From: Kitasatospora herbaricolor | Lineage (GTDB): Bacteria > Actinomycetota > Actinomycetes > Streptomycetales > Streptomycetaceae | NCBI RefSeq assembly: GCF_030813695.1 | Contig: NZ_JAUSVA010000002.1 | Location: 930,001 to 994,000, forward strand | DNA: 64,000 nucleotides | Reading direction: 5' to 3' | Shown here: positions 6,646 to 33,441 of the stretch, in pieces | How the letters are laid out: each line of letters begins with the position of its first letter | Numbering within the stretch: the stretch's first letter is position 1 | Notes under the pieces: generated by a model | What the model saw: only the letters and a program-made list of their open reading frames with translations | The model's database searches: none | What the model was told of the DNA's origin: nothing | Translations under genes and position numbers: made by a program

Positions 6646-6661
6646 CGGGCCGGGGGCGGAG

Positions 6662-6890
6662 TCGCATGAAGACCGGTCGGTCCATTCACGCCCGAGGCAG
6701 CCGAATATGACGACCAGTCGGTCCATTCACACTTGCGGCAAGCGAATATGACGACCGGTCGGTCCGTACATACCGGAGTCAGCCGAATATGACGACCGGT
6801 CGGTCGATTCACACTTGTGGCAAGCGAATATGACGACCGGTCGGTCCGTACATGCCGGAGTCAGCCGAATATGACGACCGGCCGGTCTGC
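6662..6890. repeat. 41-bp tandem repeat array with two alternating unit types
   Basis: GAATATGACGACC recurs at 6703, 6744, 6785, 6826 and 6867, exactly 41 bp apart, with a further partial unit at 6662-6702. Each unit holds the palindrome CGACCGGTCG (exact in three units, one mismatch in two). The other half of the unit alternates: one type contains CATTCACACTTG and the next GTACATACCGGAG, giving an 82-bp higher-order repeat. The period is not a multiple of three, stops occur, and base composition is much less GC-rich than the genes, so it is non-coding. It fills the gap between two convergent genes. Confidence 0.9.
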
Positions 6891-6917: not shown

Positions 6918-8051
6918 TCACCGGCGTTCGCGCAGCCAGCGGGCGAAGGCCTCCAGTCCGTCCTGCGGGTTGCCGCGGCCCACGCCGATCCGGAAGCGAT
7001 CAGTGGGGGTGGGAGTCAGTTCGGACCGGTAGATGCCGGCCGGCAGCAGCAGGACGCCGGCCTCCTCCACCAGCCGGGTGCAGAACTCCTCGACGCCCTC
7101 CCCGCCCAGGTAGCGGGGGTAGGCGACGCAGCCGCCGTCCGGGGCGCGCCACTCGAACAGGTCGGCGAATTCGCCGAAGAAGGCGTCGAAGAGCGGCAGG
7201 TTGGCGGCGATCAGGGCCCGGTTGCGCCCCAGGATCGTCCCGCTCGCCTTCAGCGCGATCCGGGCCAGCACCTCGCTCGGGGCGGAGTTGCAGATCGTGG
7301 TGTAGTGCTTGGCCCGCTCCAGACGGGAGCGCAGTTCACGGTCGCGGCAGGTGATCCAGCCGATCCGCAGGCCCGGGAGCCCGAGCGACTTCGAGGTCAC
7401 GTTCAGTGAGAGGGCGCGCTCCGAGAGGTCAGCGGCGTTCGGCAGGGTGCGGGCCCGGTCCCGCTCAAGGCCGCGGTAGACCTCGTCGCTGAACAGGTGG
7501 ACGCCGCGTTCGTCGCACAGCCGGACCAGGGCGCCGAAGTCGTCGGCACCGATGACCTTTCCGGTCGGGTTGTTGGGGAAGTTGACGGAGACCACCCGGG
7601 TGTTCGGCCGGATCGCCGCGGCGACCTGGTCCAGGTCCAGCGCCCAGTCCCGTGCCGGGTCGAGGGCCACCCCGGTGACCTCGCACAGCGCCATCGGCAC
7701 CGTCTCGGCCGCCTGGTAGTTGGGGGTCAGCACCACCGCGTGGTCGCCGGGCCCGAGCAGCACGTTCATCGCGAGGTAGAGGGCCTCCTCGGCACCCGCG
7801 AAGCAGATCACGTCGTCGGCCCCGGCCTGCCGGTAGCCGGCCGCGATCGCCTCGCGCAGGCCCGGGTCTCCGAAGGTCTCGGTGTAGCCGAGCGACAGGT
7901 TCTCGAAGGCCTTGCGGTCCTCGTCGTCGGCCAGTGCGAGCAGGTCCGCCAGGGTCATGGTCTGCGCGTCGGAGGCGGTCAGGTGGTGGCGGGCGGTGAA
8001 CTCCCAGCGGGAGAAGTAGGTTTCCAGCCGGAAGTCGGGCAGTCGGGTCAC
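6918..8051 (-). CDS. PLP-dependent aminotransferase, class I/II
   Basis: A 377-residue fold-type I aminotransferase. Motifs: NFPNNPTGK around N161, SDEVYRG with the pyridoxal Asp189, the Schiff-base lysine K221 in VTSKSLGLPGLRIGW, and RIGVGR near the C-terminus for the substrate carboxylate. The GTG start overlaps the stop of the upstream regulator by four bases (GTGA), so the two are translationally coupled. It resembles the group that includes capreomycidine synthase-like enzymes, but the amino acid acted on cannot be read from sequence. Confidence 0.88.
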   Translation of the reverse strand: MTRLPDFRLETYFSRWEFTARHHLTASDAQTMTLADLLALADDEDRKAFENLSLGYTETFGDPGLREAIAAGYRQAGADDVICFAGAEEALYLAMNVLLGPGDHAVVLTPNYQAAETVPMALCEVTGVALDPARDWALDLDQVAAAIRPNTRVVSVNFPNNPTGKVIGADDFGALVRLCDERGVHLFSDEVYRGLERDRARTLPNAADLSERALSLNVTSKSLGLPGLRIGWITCRDRELRSRLERAKHYTTICNSAPSEVLARIALKASGTILGRNRALIAANLPLFDAFFGEFADLFEWRAPDGGCVAYPRYLGGEGVEEFCTRLVEEAGVLLLPAGIYRSELTPTPTDRFRIGVGRGNPQDGLEAFARWLRERR

Positions 8052-17112: not shown

Positions 17113-17144
17113 AAGGGGCGAGCGGCCGGCCCGCGGGGCGGCCG

Positions 17145-18068
17145 CTACACCACGCCGGCCGCGCGCAGCAGCCACCGGTTGGCACCGCCGACCAGCCCCG
17201 CCCGGTCGAGCACGGCCAGGGTCTTCGCCGCCATCTCCCGCTTGGTGGTGTGCCAGTACGGGTTGGCCCGGGCCGCCCGGCGCCCCTCGGCGGGGCTCAC
17301 CCCGACGGCGGCGTAGAGGCGGGGGTTGATCAGGCTGGTGGTGGAGAAGTAGACGATCAGTCCGATGAGCAGTTGCTCCCAGCGCCGCCGGAGCGGGCCG
17401 AGGTGCCCGCGCTGCAACTCCTCCCGGGCGTAGCTGATGTGCCGGGACTCCTCGATCACATGGATCCGGGAGACCTGGCGGGTCAGCGGCTGGAGCGTCT
17501 CGTCGGCCATCACCTCGCGCTGGAAGGCGTCCAGGATCTCCTCGACGTACATCGTGCCGCCGAAGGTCTGGCTGTGCGTGGAGACGGCCTTGAAGATCCG
17601 GCCCAGCTCGTGCGCCAGCCGCGCCGGGCGGTACGCCGGCACGCCCATCCAGGTGATCATCCGGGCGAACATCACCGAGTGCCGGCACTCGTCGCCGATC
17701 TCCGTGAGGGCGTACTGGACGTGGGCGGTGGTGGGGTCGCGGTCGAAGGCGTGGCGCAGCAGCATCTGCATCAGGATCTCCTCGAACCAGATGCCCACGG
17801 CGGCGATGCTGGCGACCTCGTGCTTGCTCAGCTCGATCCGCTCCTCCTCCGTCATCCGCTCCCACTGCGGGGTGCCGTAGAGGGAGAGCCGGTGCGGAGG
17901 GCAGTAGTAGCGGCCGGGCTCCGGTCCGGTGGCCCAGTCGATGTCCTTGACGGGGTCGAAGGAGAGCTTCGCGGAGGAGGCGAGCAGGCGTTGGGCCGTC
18001 CGTTCCCGGGCGGGGGCGTGGTCGGGAGCGTCGGGCCCGTTGTTCGCCCGGCGGGTGGTGGCTGTCAT
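17145..18068 (-). CDS. AurF-like diiron oxygenase (p-aminobenzoate N-oxygenase family)
   Basis: A 307-residue ferritin-like diiron protein; ATG start with GAGGAAC upstream. Iron ligands can be assigned in four-helix order: E96/E97 (IWFEEIL), E127 and H130 (EIGDECRHS), E176 (YVEEILD), H203, E207 and H210 (HVIEESRHISY). The spacings E127-H130 and H203-E207-H210 fit what I recall for AurF, including the extra third histidine. AurF-type enzymes oxidise aryl amines to nitro groups, but many homologues have unknown substrates. It stands alone with its own promoter and no biosynthetic cluster, so a detoxification or stress role is possible. Confidence 0.85.
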   Translation of the reverse strand: MTATTRRANNGPDAPDHAPARERTAQRLLASSAKLSFDPVKDIDWATGPEPGRYYCPPHRLSLYGTPQWERMTEEERIELSKHEVASIAAVGIWFEEILMQMLLRHAFDRDPTTAHVQYALTEIGDECRHSVMFARMITWMGVPAYRPARLAHELGRIFKAVSTHSQTFGGTMYVEEILDAFQREVMADETLQPLTRQVSRIHVIEESRHISYAREELQRGHLGPLRRRWEQLLIGLIVYFSTTSLINPRLYAAVGVSPAEGRRAARANPYWHTTKREMAAKTLAVLDRAGLVGGANRWLLRAAGVV

Positions 18069-18133
18069 CGGCGGTTCCTCGGCTCCTGGGTGGGCGACCG
18101 TCCGGTCGGGGTGGCGATGGGGGCCCGGTTCAG

Positions 18134-18162
18134 AAGCTAGAAGCTATTAGACGCTGCGTCAA
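18134..18162 (-). promoter_or_regulatory. Promoter with overlapping palindrome for the AurF-like gene
   Basis: On the minus strand TTGACG (18157-18162), a 17-base spacer and TAGCTT (18134-18139) make a good sigma-70-type promoter about 65 bases from the start codon. The palindrome GACGC-T-GCGTC (18150-18160) overlaps the -35, and AGAAGCT is directly repeated over the -10. Repression at this site is likely. Confidence 0.6.
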
Positions 18163-18316
18163 TAGAGTGGGCGCGGCCGCGTCGGGGACGGGGAGCACCC
18201 GGCGTCCCGCGCAGCGGCACGGGCCGGCCCGGCGGCGCTCGACGCCACCCTCGGCGGGTTCAACTCACTTGGGCAGGAGGGGTCTTAGCACCCTCGGCCG
18301 GCGGGTCGGCAGGGCC

Positions 18317-18387
18317 TGGCCGATCAGGGCGTGACCGATCAGGGCAGGGCAGGGCAGACAGCAGGCCAGGGCGTGGCCGATCAGGGC
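18317..18387. repeat. Three copies of TGGCCGATCAGGGC
   Basis: A 14-bp sequence occurs at 18317-18330, 18332-18345 (one change, TGACC) and 18374-18387, within GGGCA-rich filler between the DeoR stop and the AurF-like promoter. No other signal was seen in 18163-18429. Confidence 0.6.
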
Positions 18388-18429
18388 AGGACGGACGGAG
18401 AGGCGGACGGGAGCCGGCGCGTTCGGCGG

Positions 18430-19242
18430 TCAGCGCCCGGCGCCGGACAGGGGCGCCACCACGAGCGCGCCCACCGACTCGGCGAGCACCGACCGGGCCT
18501 CCTCCGGCAGGCCGTCGTCGGTGACGAAGGTGCCGACCTCCGCGAGTCCGGCGAAGCTGCTCAGCGCCGTCACACCCCACTTGGTGTGGTCCGCGACCAC
18601 CATCACCCGACGCGCTGCCGCCACCAGCGCGCGATTGGTCTCGGCCTCGCCCATGTTCGGCGTGGTGAGCCCCGACTGCTCGGACACCCCGTGGGTGCCC
18701 AGGATCAGCAGGTCCACGTGCAGGGACCGGATCGCCTGGTCGGCCAGCGGCCCGACCAGCGCGGCCGAGCGGGTCGGGCTGCCGCCGGTCAGCAGCAGCG
18801 CGGGGGCGGCGTCGCCCAGCTCACGGGCCGCCGTCCGCAGCAGGTCCCCGACGGGGAGGGAGTTGGTCACCACGGTCAGCCGGGGGATCCCGAGCAGGCG
18901 GGAGGCCACCGCGAAGGCGGTCGTCCCCGCCGAGACGGCGACCACGCTGCCGGGCTCGACCAGGTCGGCGGCGGCCGACGCGACGGCGGCCTTGGCCGCC
19001 GACTCACGGGTGGACTTGGCCTCGAATCCCGGCTCGTCCGTGCTCGCCCCGACGGCGATCGCCCCTCCGTGCACCTTCTCCACCCCGCCACCGCGGGCCA
19101 GCACGTCGAGATCCCTACGGACGGTCATGTCGGACACGCCGAACTGGTCCACCAGCTCGGCGACCTTGACGGCGCCGTCCCTGCGCACCTGCTCCAGGAT
19201 GAGCGACCTGCGCTGCTGCGCCAGCAGTCCCTGATCGGCCAC
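18430..19242 (-). CDS. DeoR-family sugar-responsive transcriptional regulator
   Basis: A 270-residue regulator; the GTG start (MADQGLLAQQRR) has GGAGG nine bases upstream and matches the start of the paralogue at 32611. The N-terminal DeoR helix-turn-helix shows LVDQFGVSDMTVRRDLDVLA followed by VEKVHGGA. The C-terminal sugar-phosphate isomerase-like domain shows TTAFAVASRL, TVVTNSLPV and ADHTKWGV. It diverges from an AraFGH-like importer and is its most likely controller. It and the second DeoR protein share long identical stretches such as LHVDLLILGTHG. Confidence 0.88.
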   Translation of the reverse strand: MADQGLLAQQRRSLILEQVRRDGAVKVAELVDQFGVSDMTVRRDLDVLARGGGVEKVHGGAIAVGASTDEPGFEAKSTRESAAKAAVASAAADLVEPGSVVAVSAGTTAFAVASRLLGIPRLTVVTNSLPVGDLLRTAARELGDAAPALLLTGGSPTRSAALVGPLADQAIRSLHVDLLILGTHGVSEQSGLTTPNMGEAETNRALVAAARRVMVVADHTKWGVTALSSFAGLAEVGTFVTDDGLPEEARSVLAESVGALVVAPLSGAGR

Positions 19243-19798
19243 GGCTGTCCCTCCATCCCGGCGACGTCGGGCGCACGGCCACGACGACCGTGCGGCATGT
19301 ACCACCGGCGCCCAAAGTAGCGCAGCTGATGTCCGGACAACAGTGAATCTGATTGTTCTTGATCGCCGTATTGGGAAGCACACCCAGCGTGGTGGAAAAT
19401 GTTTATGCTTCCACCACTTACCCATTGAGGCTTCCATCAGACGCCTCGGAGTCGTCCACCGGATCCCGAGCGGCCTGCAACCGGGCGGGCCGGCGAAGCC
19501 CGGCCGCCCTCTCCCCGCGACTACAGGCGGAATCCCATCTGGCAAGGCCCCGGTGTCTCTGTTGGACGGCTGCCGCATAACGGCCGGGTCTCGATCCGAT
19601 TGGTGCCATTCACCTGGTTGACGCCTGCCGGAAACAGCTGTTTTCCTGTGGTTCATCGCGTTGGATCACGTTTACTTTTGATCGAAGCAGCGAGCGCAGC
19701 CGCTACCGTCCCCCTCCTCGGGCCGGCCCCCGCGAGCTCCGCGCAGCCATGCCTCATCGGGTCGGCCACCCCCGGCCCGTCCATGCAAGGGGATGCAC
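19243..19798. promoter_or_regulatory. Divergent regulatory region of DeoR and the arabinose importer
   Basis: 556 bases, unusually AT-rich for this genome at 19320-19430 and 19590-19690. It contains the perfect palindrome TGTCCGGACA (19330-19339) and an inverted repeat with nine-base arms, GTGGTGGAA (19389-19397) and TTCCACCAC (19409-19417). Its centre, read on the minus strand, gives ACATTTTCCAC, the motif shared with two other sites in the window. Promoters must lie here, but spacing is too uncertain to place them. Confidence 0.55.
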
Positions 19799-20845
19799 AT
19801 GTTCACTGCACGTAACCGCAGACCGGCCGCAGTCATGGCGCTGGGCCTGGTGGCAGCCCTCGGCCTCACCGCGTGTTCGACCGGCCAGGAGCCCGGCGGC
19901 AGCGGCGACGTGGCGAAGGTCGACGGGAAGATCTCGATGACCTACCTGCAGAAGCAGGGGGACCAGGAGTACTTCGTCGGCGAGGCGGCGGGCGCGAAGG
20001 CCAAGGCCGCGGAGCTGGGAGTGGACCTCAAGGTCGTCAACCTCGGCACCGACGCCAACAAGACCGTCAGCGAGGCCAAGTCCGCGATCGCCCAGAAGTC
20101 CAACGGCCTGATCGTGGTCGTGCCGGACCCGGCCGTCGGCCCGCAGGTCGTCCAGACCGCCAAGGACGCCAAGGTCGCGCTGCTCACCTCCGACGACCAG
20201 ATCTGCACCACCGGCCCCGACCCGGCGGTCTGCACCTCCGACACGCTCGTCCCCCGGATCGGCTTCAGCGGCGAGCAGATGGGCGGCGAGGTCGGCAAGC
20301 GGGCGGCCGAGGAGTTCAAGAAGGCCGGCTGGAACCCCGCCGAGACCCGCACCATCTCCGCCTGGAAGCAGGACGTCACGGTCTGCACCGACCGGGTGAA
20401 GGCCGCGAAGAACGCCTTCTTCGCCGGAGCTGGCGCCAATGTCCAGAACATCGACGTGGCCACCGACAACACCCCGACCGGCGCCCAGGACAAGATCGCC
20501 GCCACGGTCACCGCGAACGCGGGCGTCAAGCACTGGGTGGTCTGGGGCTGCAACGACGAGAACGTCCAGGGCGGCGTCACCGCGCTGGAGAACGCCGGCT
20601 TCAAGGCCGACGACGTGATCGGGGTCGGCCTCGGCGCCTACCTGGCCTGCAAGAACTGGAACTCGGGCAAGCCCTCCGGCATGAAGGCCGCGCTGTTCAT
20701 CAACGGCAGCGACGTCGGCGCGCTGGCCGTCCAGACCATGTACGACAAGCTCAAGAACGGCAAGGACTTCCCGAAGGAGGCGTTCGCGCCGACCAAGATG
20801 GTCGACGCCTCCAACTGGAAGGCCTCCGGCGTCAGCTGCAGCTGA
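19799..20845 (+). CDS. AraF-like arabinose-binding lipoprotein of a sugar ABC importer
   Basis: A 348-residue substrate-binding lipoprotein. Of two close ATGs I chose the second (MFTARNRRP), because AAGGGG lies six bases before it but abuts the first. Signal peptide with lipobox LTAC, lipidated at C26. The body is a periplasmic-binding fold: VVVPDPAVGPQVV, then VKHWVVWGCNDENVQGGVTALENAGFKADDVIG in pieces closely parallel to E. coli AraF (VKHW, GFKA-DIIG). L-arabinose is the best guess; other aldoses cannot be excluded. First gene of a three-gene operon; a hairpin follows. Confidence 0.85.
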   Translation: MFTARNRRPAAVMALGLVAALGLTACSTGQEPGGSGDVAKVDGKISMTYLQKQGDQEYFVGEAAGAKAKAAELGVDLKVVNLGTDANKTVSEAKSAIAQKSNGLIVVVPDPAVGPQVVQTAKDAKVALLTSDDQICTTGPDPAVCTSDTLVPRIGFSGEQMGGEVGKRAAEEFKKAGWNPAETRTISAWKQDVTVCTDRVKAAKNAFFAGAGANVQNIDVATDNTPTGAQDKIAATVTANAGVKHWVVWGCNDENVQGGVTALENAGFKADDVIGVGLGAYLACKNWNSGKPSGMKAALFINGSDVGALAVQTMYDKLKNGKDFPKEAFAPTKMVDASNWKASGVSCS

Positions 20846-20862
20846 GCCGGCGACCCCCGGTC

Positions 20863-20901
20863 GCGCCGGCGCGGACGTCCCCCACCCGACCGCGCCGGCG
20901 C
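20863..20901 (+). terminator. Intercistronic hairpin after the binding-protein gene
   Basis: A 12-bp stem (20863-20874 with 20890-20901, core GCGCCGGCGC) and a 15-base loop sit in the 117-base gap between binding protein and ATPase. In such operons a hairpin here usually attenuates downstream expression and stabilises the binding-protein mRNA. Confidence 0.5.
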
Positions 20902-20962
20902 CCTCACCCACCCGTCGGATCGGCTCACGGCGCCGATCGGCCCATCGTTTGCGAGGCCCTCG

Positions 20963-22605
<1,643 letters not shown>

Positions 22606-22609
<4 letters not shown>

Positions 22610-23622
22610 CCACCGCGACGGCCGACCGGCGCGCCACCAAGCCCGCCCGCAAGCGTTCCCCGCTGGCCTCGCTGGGCGGCCAGAACCTCAGCCTGATCGG
22701 CGCGCTGGTGCTGGTCCTGGGCCTGTTCGGCGTGCTGAACGACAACTACCTCAGCGTCCCCAACATGCAGGTCATCGCCGAGGCCGCCACCATCACCGGC
22801 CTGCTCGCCGTCGTCCAGACCGCCGTCATCATCTGCGGCGGCCTCGACATCTCCGTCGGCTCCCAGGCCGGCGTCGCCTCCGTCGTCAGCGCCATGGCCT
22901 TCACCACCACCGGCTCCAACGCCCTCGCCGGCATCGCCGCCGCCGTCGGCGTCGGCCTGCTCGTCGGCATCCTCAACGGCGTCATCATCGTCTACGGCCG
23001 CGTCAACCCCACCATCGCCACCCTCGCCGGCCTCGCCGCCTACAAGGGCCTCGCCCAGCTCATCTCCGACGGCCGCGCCCAGGGCTACGTCCTCAACAAC
23101 GACGTCTTCGTCTTCCTCGGCCGCGGCAAGATCGCCGGCCTGCCCGTCATGGTCTGGATCCTCATCGTCGTCGCCCTCGCCGTCCACCTCCTCCTCAAGT
23201 ACACCGACATCGGCCGCAACATCTACGCCATCGGCGGCAACGACACCGCCGCCCGCCTCGCCGGCATCAACATCAACAAGTACCTCGTCGCCGTCTACGC
23301 CCTCATCGGCGTCGTCGCCGCCCTCGCCGGCATCCTCCTCACCGCCCGCACCGGCTCCGGCCAGCCCACCTCCGGCAGCGAAGGCCTCGAACTCAAGGCC
23401 ATCACCGCCGCAGCCCTCGGCGGCGCCGCCCTCAAGGGCGGCAAGGGCGGCATCGGCGGCACCCTCCTCGCCGTCGCCCTCCTCGGCGCCCTCGAGAACG
23501 GCCTCACCGTCCAGGGCATCAACGCCTTCTGGCAGAACGTCGCCCAGGGCGCCCTCCTCGTCGTCGCCGTCGTCATCCAGCAACGCCGCAACGGCGAACG
23601 CCGCATCGGCCTCCCCGCCTGA
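22606..23622 (+). CDS. AraH-like sugar ABC transporter permease
   Basis: A 338-residue permease of the BPD_transp_2/ribose-arabinose class with about nine hydrophobic segments. The motif GGLDISVGS near residue 80 and GGNDTAARLAGININ are family hallmarks. It has no periplasmic or ATPase part of its own and must work with the two preceding proteins. Codon use changes after about codon 50: Leu and Val codons switch from mixed CTG/GTG to almost only CTC and GTC. The start overlaps the ATPase stop. Confidence 0.9.
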
Positions 23623-24300
23623 CCCCGGTCGTCCACGTCGCCGCGCCTCCCGCGACGCGCCGCAGCCCGAAAGCCCGAAAGGTGGCGGACCGGCCCGCTC
23701 GCCCGAGGTTCCGCTCGGGTCCGGCTCCCGGTCGGCGAAGAGGGCATCCGCCTGTTCCCTGTCCTCCTCGCGCCTGACACCACGGCCCGGTGCAGCGGCT
23801 GCCGATACCCGCCGACGGCCAACCGTCTCTGTAGGTCGGTGGGCGCCTCCTGGGCGGTGCGGGCGTAGGGGTCGTGCGGTGTCGTGCAGGTGGCCGGCCG
23901 CACGGTGTCGCTGTTCTTCCCGCGCACGTAGGACCAGAAGGGACGGCGGCGCGGGCGGTGTCGAGTGCGGCGGGCAGGCCCGCGAACTCGGTGCGGAGGT
24001 AGTCGGTGAGATCGGCCGCGAACCGGAACCCGTACCGCGCCTCCACCACGTCCAGCTCCCGCTCGCGCATCCCCGCCGAGATCTCAGCGCCGAGCATGCG
24101 ATGCAGGATGCGCGCGGTCTCGGGAGTCAGAGAGCGGGGAAGCTGAAGAGTCACCGACGCAGCCTGGTGGCCCCGGTACCCTGTGGTCGTTCGCGAGGGT
24201 GCCCGAGCAGGCCCAGGGCAGGGCCGGTCCTGCCCGCCCTCGGACTTCCCGGTGCCGGTAGCCTGTGGCCGGGAAACGAGGATCCACGGGAAAGGACCTG
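23623..24300. other. Mostly non-coding region with decayed coding remnants
   Basis: No intact gene fits here. The minus strand at 23935-24154 holds an SMI1-like remnant (separate entry). Further left another minus frame reads RTAQEAPTDLQRRLAVGGYRQPLHRAVV (23765-23860), which looks protein-like but has no start, end or family I recognise. A TAGCCT box at 24257-24262 could be a -10 element for the next gene. Confidence 0.5.
23935..24154 (-). pseudogene. Remnant of an SMI1/KNR4-like protein
   Basis: From a GTG (MTLQLPRSLTPETARI) the minus strand encodes about 70 residues including GMRERELDVVEARYGFRFAADLTDYL. The phrase VEARYGFRFAAD is characteristic of actinobacterial SMI1/KNR4-like immunity/scaffold proteins. 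After AAVPSGP the frame loses protein character, and no Trp-rich remainder of the family follows. I read this as an N-terminal fragment of a broken gene. Confidence 0.5.
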
Positions 24301-25008
24301 TTGTTGGACTCCGGCCCGCTGCAGCAGTTGCTCGACGATCTCCTGGACCGTGCCCTGCCCGGTCGCCCCGAACTGCCGCTGCTGTCCGGCGCCGACGGAC
24401 AGCAGCCCCACCCAGGGGTGGGGGCGGCCCGCATGTACCTGGGCCGCGCGTTGAAGGCCGACCCGGCCCTGACCGCCCGGTTGGCCGACGACGTACTGGC
24501 ACTGCTCGTCCTGGACGACAACGCCTCCAGCCAGCTGGTCTTCCCCGTGGTCGCGGCGCTCGGCCGCCGCCCCGTCCTGACCCACCTCATAGCCCAGGCC
24601 GGGCAGGGCGGTTGGCGAACAAGAATCAACGCCTGCTCGGCGGCTCACTGGGTCGGCATGTGGCAGCCCACCGACCGTCGCGACGAGATCGTCGCGGCCA
24701 TCCGTCAGGGGACCCTCACCGGCGCACAGGCCCAGACCCTGCTGCTGCAGGACCAGCGACAGCCGACCTGGCGCACCAACGACCAGATCGCCGACCTCTG
24801 GCCCGGCCTGTGGGTGGCGGCGGCAGAGGCCTTCGTCCACTGCGGGGACAACGACCTCCGGCATCGCCTCCAGGACGTCTTCCCCCTGAACACCGACCAC
24901 TACCCGCCCGCACACCGCCCGCTGGTGGACCAGGCCCGTACCATCGCCGAGGAGCAACCCGAACTCTTCGGCAGACTCCTGACAAACGTGTCCGGCCACG
25001 GCACCTGA
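24301..25008 (+). CDS. Conserved hypothetical helical-repeat protein
   Basis: About 235 residues from a TTG (24301, or TTG 24304) with AAAGGA just upstream; an in-frame GTG at 24265 overlaps the likely -10 box and is less likely. The sequence is soluble and mostly helical, with repeated L-A-x-x-V/A patterns and DDNASSQLVFPVVAALGRR, GWRTRINACSAAHWVGMW and GDNDLRHRLQDVFPL, reminiscent of HEAT-like repeats. No catalytic motif, signal or membrane segment. Family not recognised. Single gene. Confidence 0.65.
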   Translation: MLDSGPLQQLLDDLLDRALPGRPELPLLSGADGQQPHPGVGAARMYLGRALKADPALTARLADDVLALLVLDDNASSQLVFPVVAALGRRPVLTHLIAQAGQGGWRTRINACSAAHWVGMWQPTDRRDEIVAAIRQGTLTGAQAQTLLLQDQRQPTWRTNDQIADLWPGLWVAAAEAFVHCGDNDLRHRLQDVFPLNTDHYPPAHRPLVDQARTIAEEQPELFGRLLTNVSGHGT

Positions 25009-25241
25009 CCGACGGCAACCGGCGAGGCTTGGCCCGAGCGCCCATCGGACCCTGAAGGACCCGGTCCGCTCGGCCGTGGCCCCGAGAACCACCCCGTGCG
25101 GTGCGGGCCGCTCAGCAATCCACCCCGGGCTCCGGCCGGACGAGGCTCCTTCCGGTACGACTTGTTCCCCGCCTGGGTGAACCACGCGCCGCGTCCCCGC
25201 ACCGAACCGGGCCCCGCAAGAGGGCAGACGGGTCAGCCGGG

Positions 25242-26324
25242 TCAGCCGGGAGAGCCGGTCCAGACGACGTCGCGGCGCTTCGAGCCGTCGCCGTGGTCGA
25301 ACCGGACCGAGATGGTGTCCGTCGAGCCGTTGGGCAGGGCGTACACCTCCTGGGCGGTGACCGACTGGCCGGGGTCGAGGGAGGCGGGGATCCTGGTGAT
25401 CCGGCCCGAGATGTCGACCAGGGGGAAGAGCAACTTGTCGTTGGCGTCCTTGACGAAGAGCAACTGCGAGCCGGTCAGCGACAGCGGCGTCGAACCGGTG
25501 TTGACCACGGTGACGGCGAGAACGACGACCTTCGCGTTCTCGGGGGCCTTGGACACGGACCTGTCCGGGACGAACGGTTGCGGAGCCGCCAGGCTGATCT
25601 TCAGCCCGGTCTCCCCGTACGTGTAGGACCCGCCGAACGACAGCCTTCGGGCCTGCTCGTCCGCGGCCCGCTTCTGCTTCTCGGCCTCGAACTGTTCGAG
25701 CTGCCGCGCCACCTCCTCGCGTTGCCGCGCCACCTTGTCGCGCTGCCGTTCCGCTTCGGCGTCGGCAGCAGCCGTCGCGGAACGCTGCTCCTCCCTGACG
25801 TTGTGCACCTGCACCACGACGAGTACCCCGCCGGTGACCGAGGCGAGGAGCCCGACGGCACCGAGGATCACGCCCGTGAGGGCGATGCCGCGGTTGGTCG
25901 CCAGGCCCTTGCGGACGTGACTCAGCGCGATGGCGCCGAGGATGACGGCCAGCAGCGCCGGGAGCCAGGCGAGCCAGAAGAAGACGATCAACAGTCCGAG
26001 GACGGCACCGACGATCCCGAGCGTCATGGCCGCCACGCCGAGCCCGTTCCGGGGCTGCGGCGCGGGCTGCAGGAACGGCCAGTACGGCACGCCGGTGCCC
26101 GCCCCCGCGTTCATGTCCGGCCCCGGCACCGCCGCCGGGACCTGGGCCGGAGCTGCGGCCGGAACCGGTTCCGGTATGCCCTCCGCCGCTGGAGTTGGAG
26201 CTGGACCTGCAGGCGCAGCCGGCGCCGGGGTGGGCCCGGACCCGGACCCGGGCGGCGCCCAGGGGTTCACAGCGGCCGGATCCCCGGCGGCCTGCTGGGT
26301 GCCGGACTTGACGGCTTCGGTCAT
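25242..26324 (-). CDS. DUF4190/DUF4352-type membrane protein with Pro/Ala-rich N-terminus
   Basis: A 360-residue protein. Residues 1-90 are Pro/Ala/Gly-rich and disordered. Two or three membrane segments follow (GLGVAAMTLGIVGAVLGLLIVFFWL to LAVILGAIALS, then GIALTGVILGAVGLLASV), the DUF4190 pattern. Next is a charged coiled coil (EAERQRDKVARQREEVARQ) of about 45 residues. The last 110 residues form a beta-sandwich resembling DUF4352/TRF2-like surface domains (VVVLAVTVVNTGSTPLSLTGSQLLF). It is probably exposed outside the membrane. Start is ATG with AAGGACC upstream. Function unknown. Confidence 0.75.
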   Translation of the reverse strand: MTEAVKSGTQQAAGDPAAVNPWAPPGSGSGPTPAPAAPAGPAPTPAAEGIPEPVPAAAPAQVPAAVPGPDMNAGAGTGVPYWPFLQPAPQPRNGLGVAAMTLGIVGAVLGLLIVFFWLAWLPALLAVILGAIALSHVRKGLATNRGIALTGVILGAVGLLASVTGGVLVVVQVHNVREEQRSATAAADAEAERQRDKVARQREEVARQLEQFEAEKQKRAADEQARRLSFGGSYTYGETGLKISLAAPQPFVPDRSVSKAPENAKVVVLAVTVVNTGSTPLSLTGSQLLFVKDANDKLLFPLVDISGRITRIPASLDPGQSVTAQEVYALPNGSTDTISVRFDHGDGSKRRDVVWTGSPG

Positions 26325-26568
26325 GCGGTGGTCCTTCGGGTGGATCGGGCCGTGGACGGGTGTTCAGGTCGAATCCCGCAGTCTGCCTGACGAACACCCA
26401 GATGGCGACTCGTTTCTCCGCAGGTCGGGAGCGGTCAGCTCCACGTGCAGGTGAGCCGCACGGCTCCGCCCGGCAGCACCGCCTGGTCGGCGTGCACGAA
26501 GGTGCGGGGTTACCGGCCCGACGGCTGCTGCAAGTGCCCGGCTCGCAACGTCGGCTGCACGCGATCGA
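26325..26568. other. Non-coding gap
   Basis: No gene is supported between 26325 and the hairpin at 26569. One frame reads GYRPDGCCKCPARNVGCT (about 26511-26562), which may be a fragment of an unidentified protein but has no start or stop context. Confidence 0.4.
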
Positions 26569-26593
26569 GGGGCGGTCTCATGAAGACCGCCCC
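26569..26593 (-). terminator. Hairpin downstream of the MMPL gene
   Basis: GGGGCGGTCT pairs perfectly with AGACCGCCCC across a 5-base loop. It lies 92 bases past the MMPL stop on the minus strand, immediately beyond the 78-bp direct repeat. Confidence 0.6.
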
Positions 26594-26594
26594 C

Positions 26595-26672
26595 TGATGG
26601 GGCATCAGGCCGCCGCAGTCACCGCGCACAACCTCTGAGCAGGCAAGACATCGAAGTCGTGCTGGAGTACCA
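26595..26672 (+). repeat. 78-bp direct repeat, copy 1
   Basis: This stretch aligns without gaps to 31520-31597 in the same orientation with roughly 12 mismatches, including an identical core CTGAGCAGGCAAGACATCGA. It ends 12 bases before the MMPL stop codon. No open frame is conserved through both copies. Confidence 0.85.
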
Positions 26673-26684
26673 ACTGCTCGCCGG

Positions 26685-28877
26685 TCAGGGCACCGGGACG
26701 CGGTACGGCTCCGGGACCGGCTCGGCCCGGTGGTCGTGGCGGGCCTGGCGCAGCGGCCACCAGAGGGCGCGGCCGAGCAGGGCGGCGACGGCGGGCACCA
26801 GGACCAGGGACAGGACGACCGCGGAGAGCAGGATGCCGAGCGTCAGCGCGAAGGCGACTTGTTCACTGCCCGGGGTGGCGGCGAGGGTCGCGAAGGATCC
26901 GGCCAGGACCAGGCCGGCCGTGGCGATGGCGGGCGTGGTGTGCCGTACGGCGCGGGCGACGGCGGCGCGGGGCGGGCCGGGGCGCTGCATCTCTTCGCGG
27001 ATCCGGTCGGTGATGAGGATGTTGTAGTCGGTGCCCAGCGCCACGACGAACAGGAACAGCACCAGCGGGAGGGTGAAGCTGACGCCCGGTTCGCCCAGCC
27101 CGTGCTGGAACAGCAGGGTCGCGGCGCCGAGGGTGGCGGCGAAGCCGAGCCCGACCGAGAGCATCAGGACCACCGGGGCGAGCAGGCTGCGCAGGAGCAG
27201 CAGCAGGATCAGGGCGATCAGGGCGGCCGCGACCGGGAAGACGACCGCCAGGTCGTGGTCGACGGCGGTGGAGATGTCGGCGAAGATCGCCGCCGTGCCG
27301 CCCACGTGGGCGCTGGTCCCGGCGGGTGTGTGGGCGGCGACCGCGGCGCGGACGGGGCCGGAGGCCAGGTCACGGGCGCGTCGGCTCTGCGGGTCTGCGG
27401 TGAGGTAGAGGTCGATCCGGGCTGCGCGGCGGTCCCCGTTGAGGACGGTGCCGCCCGTCTTGCCGACGCCCTCGACCTGGGTGAGGGCGTGGGCGAGGCC
27501 GTCGAGCCGGTCGGGGGTGAGGGTGGTGCCGTCCGTGGTGACGACGTAGACGCTCGTCGGGTCGGAGACGCCGGCCGGCAGGGTGCGGGAGATCTCGGCG
27601 GCGGTGGCGGCGGCCGGGGTCCGGGCGTCGGCGCCGCCGAGGCCGTAGTCCATCCGGATCCCGGTCATCCCGGCGGCCAGCGCGCCGAGCAGGGCGAGGG
27701 CGGCGAACAGCATCGGCAGCGGCCGCCGGGCGACGAGCGTGCCGAAGCGGGCGGCGAAGCCCTCGCCCGGCTGGCGGCGCAGGCTGCGGGAGGGCCAGAA
27801 CATGCCGCGGCCGCAGGCGGCGAGCAGGGCGGGCATCATGGTGAGGCTGCCCAGCAGCATGACCAGGACGGCGACGGCGATGGCCGGGCCGAGGGAGCGG
27901 AACTGGCCGAAGCTGGCCACGCCGAGGGTGGCGAAGGCGGCGACGATGGTCAGCGCGGCCGAGGTGATCGCGGTGCCCACCCGGGCGGTCACCTGGGTGG
28001 CGGCTTCGCGGGCGGGCTGCTCGGGCCGGGCCCGCAGGTGCTCGCGGAAGCGGAAGAGCAGGAAGAGCAGGTAGTCGACGCCGATGCCGAGCAGGACCAC
28101 GGAGACCAGCCCGGGGGTGCCGGCGTCGAGCTTGAGGCCGGTCAGCGTCGCGGCGACGGCCACGGCTCCGCCGGCCACACTGCCGATCATGGCGACGGCG
28201 AGCAGCGGCAGCAGGGCCGCCGCCACGCTGCGGAACACCAGCACGTTCAGCAGGACGATCAGCCCCATGACGAGCGCGCTGCCGACCTTCGCGGCGGTGC
28301 GGTGGGAGTCGGCGGTGTCCACGGCGTCGGCCAGTCCCCCGGTGAACCCGGTGCGCATCCCGGCGTCGGCGAACTGGGCTCGGGTGGCGTCCCGGAACGC
28401 CCGGTAGACGCCCTGGACGCCCTCGTCCGCGGCGCTGCCGGTCAGTTCGACGGAGAGCAGTTCGAAGCCGCGGTCGGGCGCCACCATGGCCGGGGCGACC
28501 CGGGGGGTCTGGGACCGGTCGGGGACGAGGAAGGCCGGCGCGTCGTCCTTCCTGGGCATGACGACCCGGCGCTGGGCGAGCTTCGCCCCCTCGGCCTCGA
28601 CCCGCTGCTGGTCGGCGGCGGTGAGCGCCTGGCCGTCGGTCCTGGCGACCAGCACCGTGACCGTGGTGGCGTCGGGGTTCATCCCGAAGTTCTCCTCGGC
28701 GATCCGCAGCGCGGCGGCCGAGTCGTAGCTCTTGGGCAGGAAGTCCCCGGTCTGGGACTGGGTGACGCGGTCGAGCAGCATCGGGCTCAGCAGGGCCAGG
28801 GAGATTCCCAGCACCACCCAGAGGGTGATCACCTTCCACGGGTTCCTGGTGGAGTATCCGGTCAGTGCGCGGATCAA
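26685..28877 (-). CDS. MMPL-family RND-type membrane transporter
   Basis: A 730-residue exporter; the TTG start has GGAGGA four bases upstream, and the longer reading frame before it is not protein-like. It has the MMPL layout: one N-terminal helix (VITLWVVLGISLALLSPMLL), an extracytoplasmic loop, five helices, then the same pattern again. Family motifs include GIGVDYLLFLLFRFRE in the first half and ALGTDYNILITDRIREE in the second, where the Asp residues carry protons. Such proteins export lipids or drugs. It diverges from a two-component system likely to control it, and the pair is bracketed by 78-bp repeats. Confidence 0.9.
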   Translation of the reverse strand: MIRALTGYSTRNPWKVITLWVVLGISLALLSPMLLDRVTQSQTGDFLPKSYDSAAALRIAEENFGMNPDATTVTVLVARTDGQALTAADQQRVEAEGAKLAQRRVVMPRKDDAPAFLVPDRSQTPRVAPAMVAPDRGFELLSVELTGSAADEGVQGVYRAFRDATRAQFADAGMRTGFTGGLADAVDTADSHRTAAKVGSALVMGLIVLLNVLVFRSVAAALLPLLAVAMIGSVAGGAVAVAATLTGLKLDAGTPGLVSVVLLGIGVDYLLFLLFRFREHLRARPEQPAREAATQVTARVGTAITSAALTIVAAFATLGVASFGQFRSLGPAIAVAVLVMLLGSLTMMPALLAACGRGMFWPSRSLRRQPGEGFAARFGTLVARRPLPMLFAALALLGALAAGMTGIRMDYGLGGADARTPAAATAAEISRTLPAGVSDPTSVYVVTTDGTTLTPDRLDGLAHALTQVEGVGKTGGTVLNGDRRAARIDLYLTADPQSRRARDLASGPVRAAVAAHTPAGTSAHVGGTAAIFADISTAVDHDLAVVFPVAAALIALILLLLLRSLLAPVVLMLSVGLGFAATLGAATLLFQHGLGEPGVSFTLPLVLFLFVVALGTDYNILITDRIREEMQRPGPPRAAVARAVRHTTPAIATAGLVLAGSFATLAATPGSEQVAFALTLGILLSAVVLSLVLVPAVAALLGRALWWPLRQARHDHRAEPVPEPYRVPVP

Positions 28878-29119
28878 GATTTCCTCCGGCGGTGGACGCG
28901 AGCGTCCGCAAGGTCGGTCTCGGCTCCGGGGGTTCCCGGCCGGGTTCCAGACCATCACCCGGGGCGGGTCGCGGACGTCCCCGCGACGGACGATCCGCAC
29001 CGGGGGCCCTGCTCCTCGGCCGGGCCCGGACCCGGGACCGTGGTCCTGGTCCGGCCCCCGTGATCGGCCGTGGGGACCATGCCGGGGCGGGGTGGGCCGA
29101 TGCCAGAATGGGGTCGTCG

Positions 29120-29191
29120 GGCCTGTTCAAAGCCTGTTCAGGGTCTCATCGGGCCCTGATCGGGCTCATCGGGGCTCGTCAGGGCTCATCG
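29120..29191. promoter_or_regulatory. Seven 10-bp iterations between MMPL and kinase genes
   Basis: The stretch divides into 10-mers with strong similarity: GCCTGTTCAA, AGCCTGTTCA, GGGTCTCATC, GGGCCCTGAT, CGGGCTCATC, GGGGCTCGTC, AGGGCTCATC. The period matches a helical turn. It lies 40 bases upstream of the kinase start, in the intergenic region shared with the MMPL gene, and is a plausible binding array for the response regulator. Confidence 0.6.
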
Positions 29192-29231
29192 GTTGGGCGC
29201 GGCGCGGGCCGGGCACGGAGGGGGAACGGAC

Positions 29232-30542
29232 ATGGGCGGTCATCAGCGCCCCACGCTGGACGCGGCACTCGGGGCGGACCCGGCGCACCCGGCACACCGG
29301 GCGAGCGGGAGCCCGGGGACCGGCGGGGTGGCGGTGGCGGACGCGCCGCCGGAGACCGACGGCGCGCCGTGGACCCACACCGACGCGCTGGTGGCCGCCG
29401 GCGCCTGCACGCTCGACCTGCTCAACTACCTGCTCTTCAGCGAGATGGACGGGGTACGCCGGGTGACCCCGCCGGGCCTGCTCCTCGTCGCACTGTCGGC
29501 CCTGCCGCTGCTCGTCCGGCGCCGCCACCCGGGGCCGGCGCTCGCCGTGGTCCTGGCCGTGGAGGCCGCGATCGACCTGTCCACACCGGCGAGCACCCAC
29601 TTCGGCGCCGTCCTGATGGTCAGCCTGTACTCGGTCGCCCGGGCCCGCCCCGCCCGGGTGACGGCGGCCGCCGCGGCGGCGACGACGGTGCTGACCGCTC
29701 TGAGCCAGAGCCACCTGCGCGTCCCCTCCTGGCAGGCGCTCGCCAGCGCCTCCTGCTCCACCCTGCTCGTGGCCGGCGCCGGCCTCGCCGTGGCGCGCTG
29801 GCAGCGGGAGGTCGCGGCCAACCGCAAACTGCTGGCCGACCGCGCGGTGGCCGACGAACGCCGCCGCATCGCAAGGGAGTTGCATGACATCGTGGCGCAC
29901 CACATCACCACCATGCAGCTGATGGCCGGCGGCGCCCGGGCCAACCTCGCCCACCCGGAGGTGGTCCGGGACGCCCTGGTCACCCTGGAGTCCTCCGGGC
30001 GGATGGCCCTGCGGGAGATGCGCCAGCTCCTGGACGTCCTGCGGGCCGGCGACGAACCGGACACCGCCCCGCCCTCGCCCCAGCCCGGGGCCGAGGACCT
30101 CGGCCGGCTGGTGGACGAGTCCCGGGTGGCCGGCCTGCCGACCGACCTCGGCGTCCACGGGCCCCGCCGCCCGCTGCCGCCCACCGTCGGCCTGACCGTC
30201 TTCCGGATCGTCCAGGAGGCTCTCACCAATGCCCGCAAGCACGCCGGGCCCGCCCGCGCGACCGTCACCCTGACGTACGGTCCGGACCGGGTCACCGTCG
30301 AGGTGCGCGACGACGGGGGCACGGCGGGCACGGGCGGCGCCGCACCGCAGGAGGCGGTGCCGGCCGGCGGCAGGAGCGGGTACGGCCTGATCGGCATGCG
30401 CGAGCGCGTCGCCCTGCACGGCGGCACCCTGCGGACCGGACCACGTCCGGAGGGCGGCTTCGCCGTCCTGGCCGACCTGCCGCTGGCCCCGGAGGAGACG
30501 GCCGACGCGGCCGTCCAGCACGGAACGGTGACGGCCAGGTGA
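29232..30542 (+). CDS. NarL-type sensor histidine kinase
   Basis: A 436-residue kinase from the ATG (MGGHQRPTL) after GAGGGGGA. A 60-residue polar start is followed by hydrophobic segments (about 60-190) with no large extracellular loop, so sensing is probably within the membrane. The HisKA_3 helix ERRRIARELHDIVAHH carries the phosphorylated His218. The ATPase domain shows VFRIVQEALTNARKHAG (N box) and SGYGLIGMRERV (G box). The stop overlaps the regulator start by four bases. Partner: the following LuxR-type regulator; likely target: the divergent MMPL gene. Confidence 0.9.
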   Translation: MGGHQRPTLDAALGADPAHPAHRASGSPGTGGVAVADAPPETDGAPWTHTDALVAAGACTLDLLNYLLFSEMDGVRRVTPPGLLLVALSALPLLVRRRHPGPALAVVLAVEAAIDLSTPASTHFGAVLMVSLYSVARARPARVTAAAAAATTVLTALSQSHLRVPSWQALASASCSTLLVAGAGLAVARWQREVAANRKLLADRAVADERRRIARELHDIVAHHITTMQLMAGGARANLAHPEVVRDALVTLESSGRMALREMRQLLDVLRAGDEPDTAPPSPQPGAEDLGRLVDESRVAGLPTDLGVHGPRRPLPPTVGLTVFRIVQEALTNARKHAGPARATVTLTYGPDRVTVEVRDDGGTAGTGGAAPQEAVPAGGRSGYGLIGMRERVALHGGTLRTGPRPEGGFAVLADLPLAPEETADAAVQHGTVTAR

Positions 30543-31270
30543 GCACGCAGGGCGACGGCCCGGTGAGGCCGAACGACGTCGGCCCGGTGGGCGCGGTGAC
30601 ACCGGGCATCCGGGTCCTCATCGCGGACGACCAGCCGCTGGTGCGGCGCGGCCTGTCCCTGATCCTCTCCCCCGACCCGTCCTTCGAGGTGGTGGGCGAG
30701 GCCGAGAACGGGGAGCAGGCCGTCACCGCCGCCCGCCTGCTGCGCCCCGACGTCGTGGTGATGGACATCCGGATGCCCGTGCTGGACGGGGTCGGCGCGA
30801 CCCAGGAGCTGGCCCGCACCCTCCCCTCCTGCCGAGTCCTCGCCCTCAGCACCTTCGACATGGACGAGTACGTGGTGGCCGCGCTGCGCGCCGGCGCCCA
30901 CGGGTTCCTGCCCAAGGACGTCTCGCCGGAGGAGCTGGGCGCGGCGATCCGCACCGTCCACGCCGGCGAGGCGGTGGTCGCCCCGCGCCTGCTCACCCGG
31001 CTGATCTCCACCTACGTCCGAGCCCCGGTCGGCACCCCGCCGCCGGTCACCGACACGGGCGGGCTGACGCCCCGGGAGGTCGAGGTGTGGCGGCTGATGG
31101 CCACCGGCCTCGACAACACCGAGATCGCCCGGGCCCTGGACATCAGCCTGTCGACGGTGAAGAACTACATCACCAGCATCTTCGGCAAGCTCTACGTCCG
31201 GGACCGCGCCCAGGCGGTCATCGCGGCCTACGAGTCCGGCCTGGTCACCGCACGTACGGGAGGCGGGTAG
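30539..31270 (+). CDS. NarL/LuxR-family response regulator
   Basis: A 243-residue regulator with an extended N-terminus (25 residues before VLIADDQPLVRRG). Receiver domain residues: D30/D31, phospho-acceptor D76 in VVMDIRMP, K126 in FLPKD. The C-terminal LuxR helix-turn-helix is LTPREVEVWRLMATGLDNTEIARAL with STVKNYITSIFGKL. GTG start overlapping the kinase stop, so synthesis is coupled. The 10-bp iterations upstream of the kinase are its best candidate target. Confidence 0.92.
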   Translation: MSTQGDGPVRPNDVGPVGAVTPGIRVLIADDQPLVRRGLSLILSPDPSFEVVGEAENGEQAVTAARLLRPDVVVMDIRMPVLDGVGATQELARTLPSCRVLALSTFDMDEYVVAALRAGAHGFLPKDVSPEELGAAIRTVHAGEAVVAPRLLTRLISTYVRAPVGTPPPVTDTGGLTPREVEVWRLMATGLDNTEIARALDISLSTVKNYITSIFGKLYVRDRAQAVIAAYESGLVTARTGGG

Positions 31271-31359
31271 CGGGGCCTTTCCGTCTGCGGGCTCCTGTCG
31301 ACCGCGAGCCCCACCTGCCCAGGTCCTGGACCGGGGATCGGGACCGCCGCCGCGCGGCG

Positions 31360-31512
31360 GTGATCCCCGACGAGCGGCAGTTCCGCACCAGGGGCCGGCT
31401 CGCCGAGGCCTTGGTCCTGCGCGCACCTGCCTACCAGCTGCCCGTCCCCTGGGTCACCGCCGACTCGGCTCACGGACAGGAAGGACGCTTCCGCCGACTG
31501 CTGGAAGAGTCC
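31360..31512 (+). mobile_element. IS701-like transposase fragment
   Basis: About 50 residues of one frame read VIPDERQFRTRGRLAEALVL, then LPVPWVTADSAHGQEGRFRRLLEES. The WVTADSxYGQ segment with its catalytic Asp is characteristic of IS701-family DDE transposases common in Streptomyces. The fragment begins and ends abruptly inside that domain; the expected GYVLAVPKSQ continuation is missing. The 78-bp direct repeat copy 2 starts eight bases later. Confidence 0.7.
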
Positions 31513-31519
31513 GTGGCGG

Positions 31520-31597
31520 TGATGGGACATCAGGCCGTCGTACTCACCGCGCGTAGCCGCTGAGCAGGCAAGACATCGAAGTCCTGCTGGAGTACCA
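31520..31597 (+). repeat. 78-bp direct repeat, copy 2
   Basis: Gap-free match to 26595-26672 in the same orientation. It follows the IS701-like fragment directly. The 4.85 kb between the two copies holds only the MMPL gene, the two-component system and the transposase fragment. Confidence 0.85.
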
Positions 31598-32610
31598 GGA
31601 CGCCGAGCGGTGAGCGGGGCGCACCGGCGCCCGGAGGTGGGACGGCTGCCGGTGCGGGCGTGGCGGACGCGCGCACCGGCGGCCCGGTGGATGGCAGGAT
31701 CGCCGTCCCTCAACGGCTCGCTGCCGCCGTCACGATCCGGATCCGAGCCGGCGCCGCTGTGCGAGGGGCGACGGCTCAGGGGGATTCCGAGTCGTGACGG
31801 AGTCTCACGGCGCCGAGCTGGTACGGCCCGCGGCCGCGGCCGCGCCGGTACCGACGGCGGTGACCTGCGCCGTGGAGGAGCGTGCCCCGCCGGGGGTTCC
31901 AGGGCAGCCCGGCGGGGAGGTCGAGAGCGCCGCCCGGCGCAGGGGTGGCGCCCTCGTCCATAGTCAGCATTTTCCAACATTTATCAACGGAAGGCAATAG
32001 TCGGCCCGGCGGTGCAGCTCGCCCCCGGAGCGACCTCGGGCCAACGGGCAGCGCGCGTGCGGAGCAGCAGAACGCGTCGGACGGGTGTCCGGGAATCCAC
32101 CACGACCGGACCGGAACCACCCGCAGGCCGGCAGCGGCCCCGTCGGGCGACGGATCCGAACCCGGCCGCCTGCCGTCCTCGATCCCCAGTCCCCGGAACT
32201 ACCTACCGGCCGCACTACCTAGGGTGCCCGCAGTCTCGGCGGGAACCGTGTCGGTTCGGTGTCCTCGCCGGTGTCGGAACCGGCGTGCGCGGAGGGCGGA
32301 ATGGAACGACGCCCGGGACGGGTCGCAGCCAGGCCCGGGCTCCGCCGGTCCGGACCGGCGGAGCACCTCGCGGCCCCGGCCGGGCGTCGTGGAGCCACCC
32401 GCAGCAGGTGGCCGAAGCCGAGAATGGAGCTGCCCGATGGACCCCGAAATCCCCGCCGTCCCGTTCGTCCCGGCCCCCCGGGAGGCCGGTGCGCGTCGCC
32501 TCGGCGCGGTGGCCCGTCTCCGACGTCGGAACCGTCCGCACACTGCGGAATGCCTGTGCAGTAGATTCATGCCGACGGACGACACTCTCGACGGCGGGTC
32601 TGGGGATCTG
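31598..32610. other. Kilobase-long region without a recognisable gene; AT-rich motif at 31968-31988
   Basis: No frame in this kilobase looks like a protein. At 31968-31988 two near-identical 10-mers stand head to tail, CATTTTCCAA and CATTTATCAA, in an AT-rich island. This is the motif shared with sites near the other DeoR gene and the P450 operon. A TAGATT box at 32562-32567 could be the -10 of the following regulator, giving a leader of about 35 bases. The long gap between motif and gene is unexplained. Confidence 0.5.
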
Positions 32611-33441
32611 GTGGCTGATCAAGGACTGCTCGCACATCAGCGCCGTGCGCTGATCATGGAAGCGATCCGGCGCGACGGTGCTGTCCGCGTGTCGGAGCTG
32701 GTCGAGCAGCTGGGCGTGTCGGACATGACCGTCCGGCGCGACCTGGACGCTCTGGCGCGCAGCGGCGATGTGGAGAAGGTGCACGGCGGCGCCGTGGGGC
32801 TGGTCGGCCGCACCGGTGACGAGGTCGGTTTCGCGGCCAAGAGCGGCCTGGAGCCGTCCGCCAAGCGGGCCATCGCGGAGGCGGCCGCCCTTCTGGTGAC
32901 GCCCGGCAGCGTGGTCGCGCTGGGCGGCGGCACCACGGTGCACGCCGTGGCGACCCGGCTGGTGAACGTCCCGGGGCTGACCGTGGTGACCAACTCGCTG
33001 CCGATCGCGCAGCTGCTGGAGTCCGAGGGCGTGAAGAGCCCGACCTCGCCGTCGGTCCTGCTCACCGGCGGCGCGCCGACCCCCTCGCAGGTGCTGGTCG
33101 GGCCGCTCGCCGACATGGTGATCGGTTCGCTGCACGTGGACCTGCTGATCCTCGGGACGCACGGCGCCTCCGGCCGGGCCGGGCTGACCACGCCGAACCT
33201 CGCCGAGGCACAGACCAACCGGGCCCTGATCGGGTGCGCCCGGCGGGTGGCCGTGGTCGCCGACCACACCAAGTGGGGCGTCACCGGCCTGAGCAGCTTC
33301 GCCGGCCTGCACGAGGTGGACTACTTCGTCACCGACGCCGGTCTCACGACGGAGGACCGCTCGGCCCTCGCCGAGGTGGTCGGCGAGCTGGTGATCGCGG
33401 AGGCCTCCGACGCCGCGGGCACGGACGCCCTGCCCGGCTAG
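32611..33441 (+). CDS. DeoR-family transcriptional regulator (paralogue of 18430-19242)
   Basis: A 276-residue regulator from GTG (MADQGLLAHQRRAL) after GGGGA; an in-frame ATG at 32569 overlaps the probable -10 and is rejected. The helix-turn-helix LVEQLGVSDMTVRRDLDALA and VEKVHGGAV match the first DeoR protein nearly word for word, as do TVVTNSLPI, LHVDLLILGTHG and ADHTKWGVTGLSSFAGL. The sugar-phosphate pocket therefore probably recognises a similar effector. It sits upstream of the ferredoxin/P450 pair, with the shared AT-rich motif on both sides of it. Confidence 0.88.
   Translation: MADQGLLAHQRRALIMEAIRRDGAVRVSELVEQLGVSDMTVRRDLDALARSGDVEKVHGGAVGLVGRTGDEVGFAAKSGLEPSAKRAIAEAAALLVTPGSVVALGGGTTVHAVATRLVNVPGLTVVTNSLPIAQLLESEGVKSPTSPSVLLTGGAPTPSQVLVGPLADMVIGSLHVDLLILGTHGASGRAGLTTPNLAEAQTNRALIGCARRVAVVADHTKWGVTGLSSFAGLHEVDYFVTDAGLTTEDRSALAEVVGELVIAEASDAAGTDALPG

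Follow-up and report, generated by a model that had tools for sequence, protein, structure and literature searches.

A probable decayed composite transposon with IS701-family ends around an MMPL transporter and a two-component system in Kitasatospora herbaricolor

The window analysed here is a stretch of 64,000 nucleotides from Kitasatospora herbaricolor (contig NZ_JAUSVA010000002.1, positions 930,001 to 994,000; C2:930001-994000). It contains an operon for an MMPL-family transporter, a sensor histidine kinase and a response regulator, bracketed by two direct repeats of 78 bp and by remnants of an insertion sequence (IS). This locus is probably, with a probability of roughly 0.6, a decayed composite (IS-operon-IS) transposon, which was spread horizontally and is now stranded. 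It suggests that a simple IS-bracketed unit can package transporter-plus-sensor operons and carry them from one actinomycete species to another. The unit looks like an ordinary type of mobile gene package that is no longer able to jump, and the puzzling 78-bp repeat turns out to be a routine IS end. One such unit is now available for comparison in four copies, each decayed in its own way.

The two copies of the repeat lie at 26595-26672 and 31520-31597, exactly where a sequence-only reading of the window had placed them. They are in the same orientation, without gaps and 88% identical, and their start positions are 4925 bp apart. Among the direct repeats listed for 25500-33000, this pair is the longest. 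Two occurrences of its 22-bp core were found in the window, compared with 0.00 expected (100 shuffles), and a search of the whole genome (9.58 Mb) with the 78-mer gave these two places; chance is therefore not the explanation of the repeat. In the genus, the 78-mer matched 15 of 70 genomes, the window's own counted. In G053, G029, G035, and G065 it forms an inverted pair with a spacing of about 1.3-1.6 kb, which is the signature of an IS. By sequence comparison, the repeat belongs to an IS701-family IS of 1591 bp, whose terminal inverted repeats are 144 bp long; it corresponds to their outer part and is, in itself, an ordinary IS end. The sequence-only reading had considered the repeat to be unlike any known feature, perhaps a dispersed element, or else a site-specific exchange site. 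This is not supported: a dispersed element and an attachment site are both rejected in view of the two genomic places and the identity as an IS end. Its description of the repeats as footprints fared better, since they are relics of IS ends.

The whole IS copy in G053 (L032:925-2515) served as the reference for all IS positions. It is 1591 bp long, counting both CTAG, and its 144-bp inverted repeats show 97.9% identity. Its transposase gave 448.5 bits with NCBIfam NF033540 (IS701 family transposase; cut-off 150) and 186.6 bits with Pfam DDE_5. Intact copies of the same IS exist in other genomes of the genus. With this reference, the block in the window is arranged as follows:

26546..26670, + strand: left IS relic, 125 bp of terminal inverted repeat, 85.6% identity to IS 1465-1588 of L032:925-2515
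26595..26672, + strand: repeat copy 1, the outer part of the terminal repeat of the left relic
26685..28877, - strand: MMPL-family (RND-type) transporter, 730 aa, TTG start picked by eye; PF03176, 331.5 bits
29232..30542, + strand: HisKA_3 sensor histidine kinase, 436 aa, start picked by eye; PF07730, 59.8 bits, and PF02518, 47.4 bits
30539..31270, + strand: NarL/LuxR-type response regulator, 243 aa; PF00072 and PF00196
31297..31513, + strand: right IS relic, inner piece, a transposase fragment; IS 593-809, 83.9% identity
31520..31598, + strand: right IS relic, outer end; IS 1513-1591, 83.5% identity, containing repeat copy 2 (31520-31597)

The MMPL gene, kinase, regulator, and IS701-like fragment named in the sequence-only reading are all found between the copies. 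In addition to what was noticed there, the IS homology reaches left of copy 1, to 26546. The left relic consists of one terminal repeat alone, with its outward tip directed at the MMPL gene; the left outer IS end is gone. The right relic (31297-31598) has lost the first 592 bp of the IS, plus 703 bp from its middle. The IS701-like fragment and the second repeat map in order on one IS and, judged by this alignment, are one relic. The transposase fragment at 31324-31521 (66 aa) gave 57.2 bits with NF033540, under the cut-off of 150 as is expected for a fragment, and 39.8 bits with DDE_5. Only 217 bp of transposase sequence is left in the relics of the window, and the IS query found no match above 69% identity in the window's genome outside the two relics. 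The unit is therefore stranded.

The region 26324-32460 gave some match in all 70 genomes searched in the genus. A near-full-length single alignment was found in at least nine (the window's own, G056, G035, G016, G069, G044, G006, G010, and G029), and further genomes match in two parts. Four of these genomes, namely the window's own, G056, G035, and G016, are called the holders below; the identity of the block to the window is 97.0% in G056, 95.1% in G035, and 94.5% in G016. IS sequence on both sides of the operon was detected by BLAST in the window's own genome, G056, and G035. At the left inner junction of all four holders, the IS tip ..GGAGTA is followed by CCAAC, CTAAC or CTGAC, then by (G/T)GC(T/C)CGCC, and then by the MMPL stop codon. 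The right inner junction begins at IS position 593 in the window, 584 in G056 and G035, and 600 in G016. A degenerate pattern of the left junction matched three stretches in 84,980 species genomes, among which the window's own genome is possibly not included: these are the stretches in G056, G035, and G016.

Outside the unit, the holders differ. The window has only the block and the IS copies in common with the regions around G056:C22, G035, and G016 (above 110 bits), and the same is true when these three regions (12-16 kb, above 150 bits) are compared with each other, so that IS material forms the limit of the shared unit on either side. The flanks in G056 (C44 and C22) gave nothing above 50 bits against each other or against the G016 flanks. 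Of 13 genomes searched with a G016 flank (L052:2300-4023), 8 gave matches, the best being only 67% over about 530 bp in G069, and the window's genome gave none. Each of the four genomes has the operon at a site unrelated to the other three, and yet with the same inner junctions. Vertical inheritance at one conserved location is ruled out by the unshared flanks at the four sites.

A possible empty counterpart is known for the G035 site. Its flanks lie 643-1703 bp apart, without the cassette, in six of seven relatives (G047, G007, G037, G026, G058, and G003); in the seventh, G069, only the right flank was found. The sequence-only reading had named empty sites with a single copy as support; these stretches may be such sites, but a gene that the relatives have is missing in G035, and the window's own site lacks a clean one. 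All that remains of the left IS in G035 is the inner tip and, next to CTAG, an outer tip of 34 bp. Beyond IS position 1054, the native right flank of G035 begins again, close to the start codon of a gene whose counterpart in G003 is a hydrolase-like frame (by eye). The arrival of the cassette, or a later event, therefore seems to have cost G035 this gene. An inverted CTAGGGGCTCTCTTTCGGATCACG motif was also seen by eye in G035 (L051:3333-3370 and 6656-6700), which suggests another element beside the cassette.

The history of the operon does not follow that of gyrB. The operon identities to the window are 98.0% (G056), 97.6% (G035), 97.2% (G016), 93.7% (G069), and 88.0% (G044), and the corresponding gyrB values are 90.8, 91.2, 99.2, 91.2, and 90.6%. 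Between the window's genome and G056, the synonymous divergence (dS) is 0.029-0.035 for the three cargo genes compared with 0.218 for gyrB; between the window's genome and G016, it is 0.041-0.051 compared with 0.027. For gyrB, the comparison is by dS only, as its nonsynonymous divergence (dN) appears inflated by reading frames running past the gene. In the approximately unbiased (AU) test, the gyrB data rejected the four holders as one clade (p 1.04e-47), and the operon data rejected a clade of G056 and its gyrB sister G044 (p 2.67e-41). In the operon tree, the window's genome and G016 are sisters (100/99), with which gyrB is compatible. The simplest reading of these trees would be that the operon passed from one clade to another and was later moved or acquired a second time. 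The proposal that the transporter-plus-sensor block was moved as a unit is supported by this conflict, by the common junctions at four sites, and by the six relatives without the cassette.

The most IS sequence is left in G056, where the left IS points away from the right IS. This left IS lies in two parts: IS 310-2 at C22:1189-1497 and IS 1591-311 at C44:60163-61438. The 3' end of a group II intron is present at the C44 break (RF00029, 52.4 bits; L115:11440-11539), and a GTGCG-type intron 5' end is seen by eye on the other strand at the C22 side (L031:1-1188). The terminal repeats bracketing the operon are 95.8% identical (137/143 columns), and 98.7% over the outer 78. Both outer tips read CTAA, on two contigs, and homology to G003 (94% over 2.9 kb) ends just before the left CTAA.

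In a composite transposon such as Tn10 or Tn5, two IS copies surround the cargo. The present unit resembles these in having two copies of the same IS around unrelated cargo, pointing away in G056, in that one IS is without its inner end, and in occurring at different sites with the same inner junctions. It differs in the IS family, in the cargo, which is an MMPL transporter and a two-component system in place of a classical resistance gene, and in that all four known copies are decayed. From this anatomy, transposition of the whole unit is inferred as the mechanism. An IS701 transposase acting on the outer IS ends would bring the whole unit into CTAR-type targets. In all four genomes the right IS lacks its inner end, which would have kept this IS from leaving alone. 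A plasmid or conjugation would account for transfer between species, and later private deletions might have removed transposase and ends and so fixed the unit of the window. It should be mentioned that the same genes occur without either repeat in G069 and G044 and that the repeat is an IS end; the sequence-only reading had set both findings, which are literally true, against its own idea of movement. The idea still stands, because a composite transposon would be expected to have IS ends as its brackets.

Several observations weigh against the composite transposon. No genome has both outer tips on a single contig. The IS tips in the window are flanked by CCAA on the left and CCAG on the right, not CTAG. 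The left IS in G016 is a tip of about 8-13 nt recognized by eye, without a BLAST match; IS sequence is clear there on the right. G069, G044, and G006 carry the operon without IS and without common flanks, so that the operon is considered to travel by other means too. The sister relation of the window's genome and G016 in the operon tree means that their two different sites can only be explained by two acquisitions, or by a single one plus a move. The evidence from G056 also has weak points. Its left IS is presumed to run on from C22 to C44 through one group II intron between IS 310 and 311, which seems to have split both the IS and the assembly. The far repeat on C44 shows 85.3% identity to the repeat on C22, whereas the ends of the whole copy in G053 show 97.9%. 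A terminal repeat of G007 is the next best, at 94.4% to each of the two operon-side repeats of G056, and the argument for the same IS is modest. CTAA is also present at the inner left tip of G056, and G003 reads TGAG where G056 has the left CTAA. The last part of the left flank of G056 is a dispersed sequence (query 1994-2081); the break in the G003 homology may therefore be the edge of this sequence. No counterpart of the right flank of G056 was found in 19 kb of G003.

The window's site is a further difficulty, as it is not a clean insertion and the relatives offer no clean empty site. The right flank, from 31630/31642, matches G016:C36 and G051, and in G051 the genes matching 17117-23626 of the window are found 2.4 kb from this right-flank match. 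The DUF4190-type gene to the left of the cassette (25235-26509) lies elsewhere in G016, G049, and G010 among the matches listed. The homology of this gene (window 25235-26545) stops 37 bp (G049), 54 bp (G016), and about 98 bp (G010) before the left IS relic. There is likely a breakpoint of a rearrangement beside this relic, and the rearrangement accompanied or followed the arrival of the cassette. Further to the left, 24265-25005 matched no Pfam family.

Some of these points would fit a different role of the IS copies. The operon might have been carried by a larger mobile element, such as a linear plasmid or an integrative conjugative element, or by an exchange between chromosome arms, with the IS701 copies as passengers that were dragged along as neighbours and then decayed. 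Similar trios are indeed present on 12 records of large Streptomyces plasmids (at least 80% query coverage, about 82% identity); the one plasmid trio inspected has an ISAzo13 transposase on one side, at a distance of about 1.4 kb, and an IS3-type pair on the opposite side, about 1.8 kb away. The IS-free operon copies likewise have no common flanks, the window's site shows extra rearrangement, and there is no proven matching target duplication around the whole unit. Against this, the four holders have nothing in common beyond the IS material in the stretches compared. We regard this explanation as unlikely, although it deserves some weight.

It is improbable that the unit was integrated by homologous recombination, with its IS remnants pairing with IS701 copies resident in the recipient. 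A whole IS copy near the cassette in G035 and more pieces in G056 are compatible with such an exchange, as is the right IS piece, which differs beyond about 665 among the four genomes. However, no IS above 40 bits was found in the stretches of the seven relatives for the G035 site, and the genome of the window has no other IS match above 69%. Two unrelated IS insertions that happened to flank a resident operon, without movement of any unit, can practically be dismissed: near-full or two-part operon matches are common in the genus and the copies inspected outside the four holders are IS-free, but four genomes have the same inner junctions, each at another site, and the histories of operon and gyrB conflict.

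Returning to the composite transposon, a more specific version of it concerns its right border. The right relic breaks at IS 664-666 in G056 (L031:6132-6643), G035 (L051:11408-11651), and G016 (L052 near 4024, reverse strand). The partner after the break differs, being IS 1153, IS 888, and non-IS sequence, respectively, and a CCCC stretch is present there. The right relic of the window is unbroken past about 665, on to IS 809. It is conceivable, but rather doubtful, that IS701-type elements with near-perfect terminal repeats of about 144 bp built the composite, that its right border is a re-used breakpoint at about IS 665 (three of four copies within 3 bp), and that the MMPL-plus-sensor unit spread among Kitasatospora in this form. 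If this were true, it would be a sign that the unit was joined in an unusual one-ended or end-adjacent manner and not by ordinary two-ended transposition.

The assignment of the IS to the IS701 family is based on a transposase well above the NF033540 cut-off and on the 4 bp (CTAG) that flank both sides of well-kept copies. CTAG was found at both sides in all six unsplit two-ended copies with exact tips (L032, L033, L034, L051, L112, and L113). Because CTAG is palindromic, it does not distinguish a fixed target from a 4-bp duplication. In the split copy of G063 (L036, tips at 7263 and 10562), the flanking bases are CGAG and CCAG. The terminal inverted repeats are 141-146 bp in the three copies measured, which is long for the IS701 family. 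Two Streptomyces plasmids also carry IS701-family copies (L112:301-1893 and L113:301-1893) whose terminal inverted repeats are 141-146 bp with 99-100% identity, so such a length may be typical of a subgroup. The window itself carries fragments only. According to Table 1 of PMC2266710, the end consensus of the family is ---YACT-Y--YR and its typical size 1400-1550. The tip TAG-TACTCCAGCA fits this consensus if the end is set at TAG, and TAGTACTCCAGCA, compared by eye, fits on the same proviso; the length of 1591 bp is slightly above the typical size.

In each of the four holders, the reading frames of the three cargo genes are open almost from end to end, and their dN/dS ratios are 0.28 to 0.81 (four holder pairs computed), which is weak evidence that the genes are being kept. 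The cargo is probably an exporter of a compound sensed by its own kinase. In an NCBIfam scan of the three proteins, all matches, for the regulator the best 25 listed, were below the cut-off and indicated no substrate. A literature search covering titles and the openings of abstracts found nothing describing this cassette.

One further feature lies inside the left terminal repeat, just left of the 78 bp:

26569..26593, no strand assigned: hairpin with a 10-bp stem, from a predicted RNA fold of 26556-26605 (-29.9 kcal/mol)

It has no counterpart beside copy 2. The predicted hairpin is located 92 bp past the stop codon of the MMPL gene, for which it could serve as a terminator.

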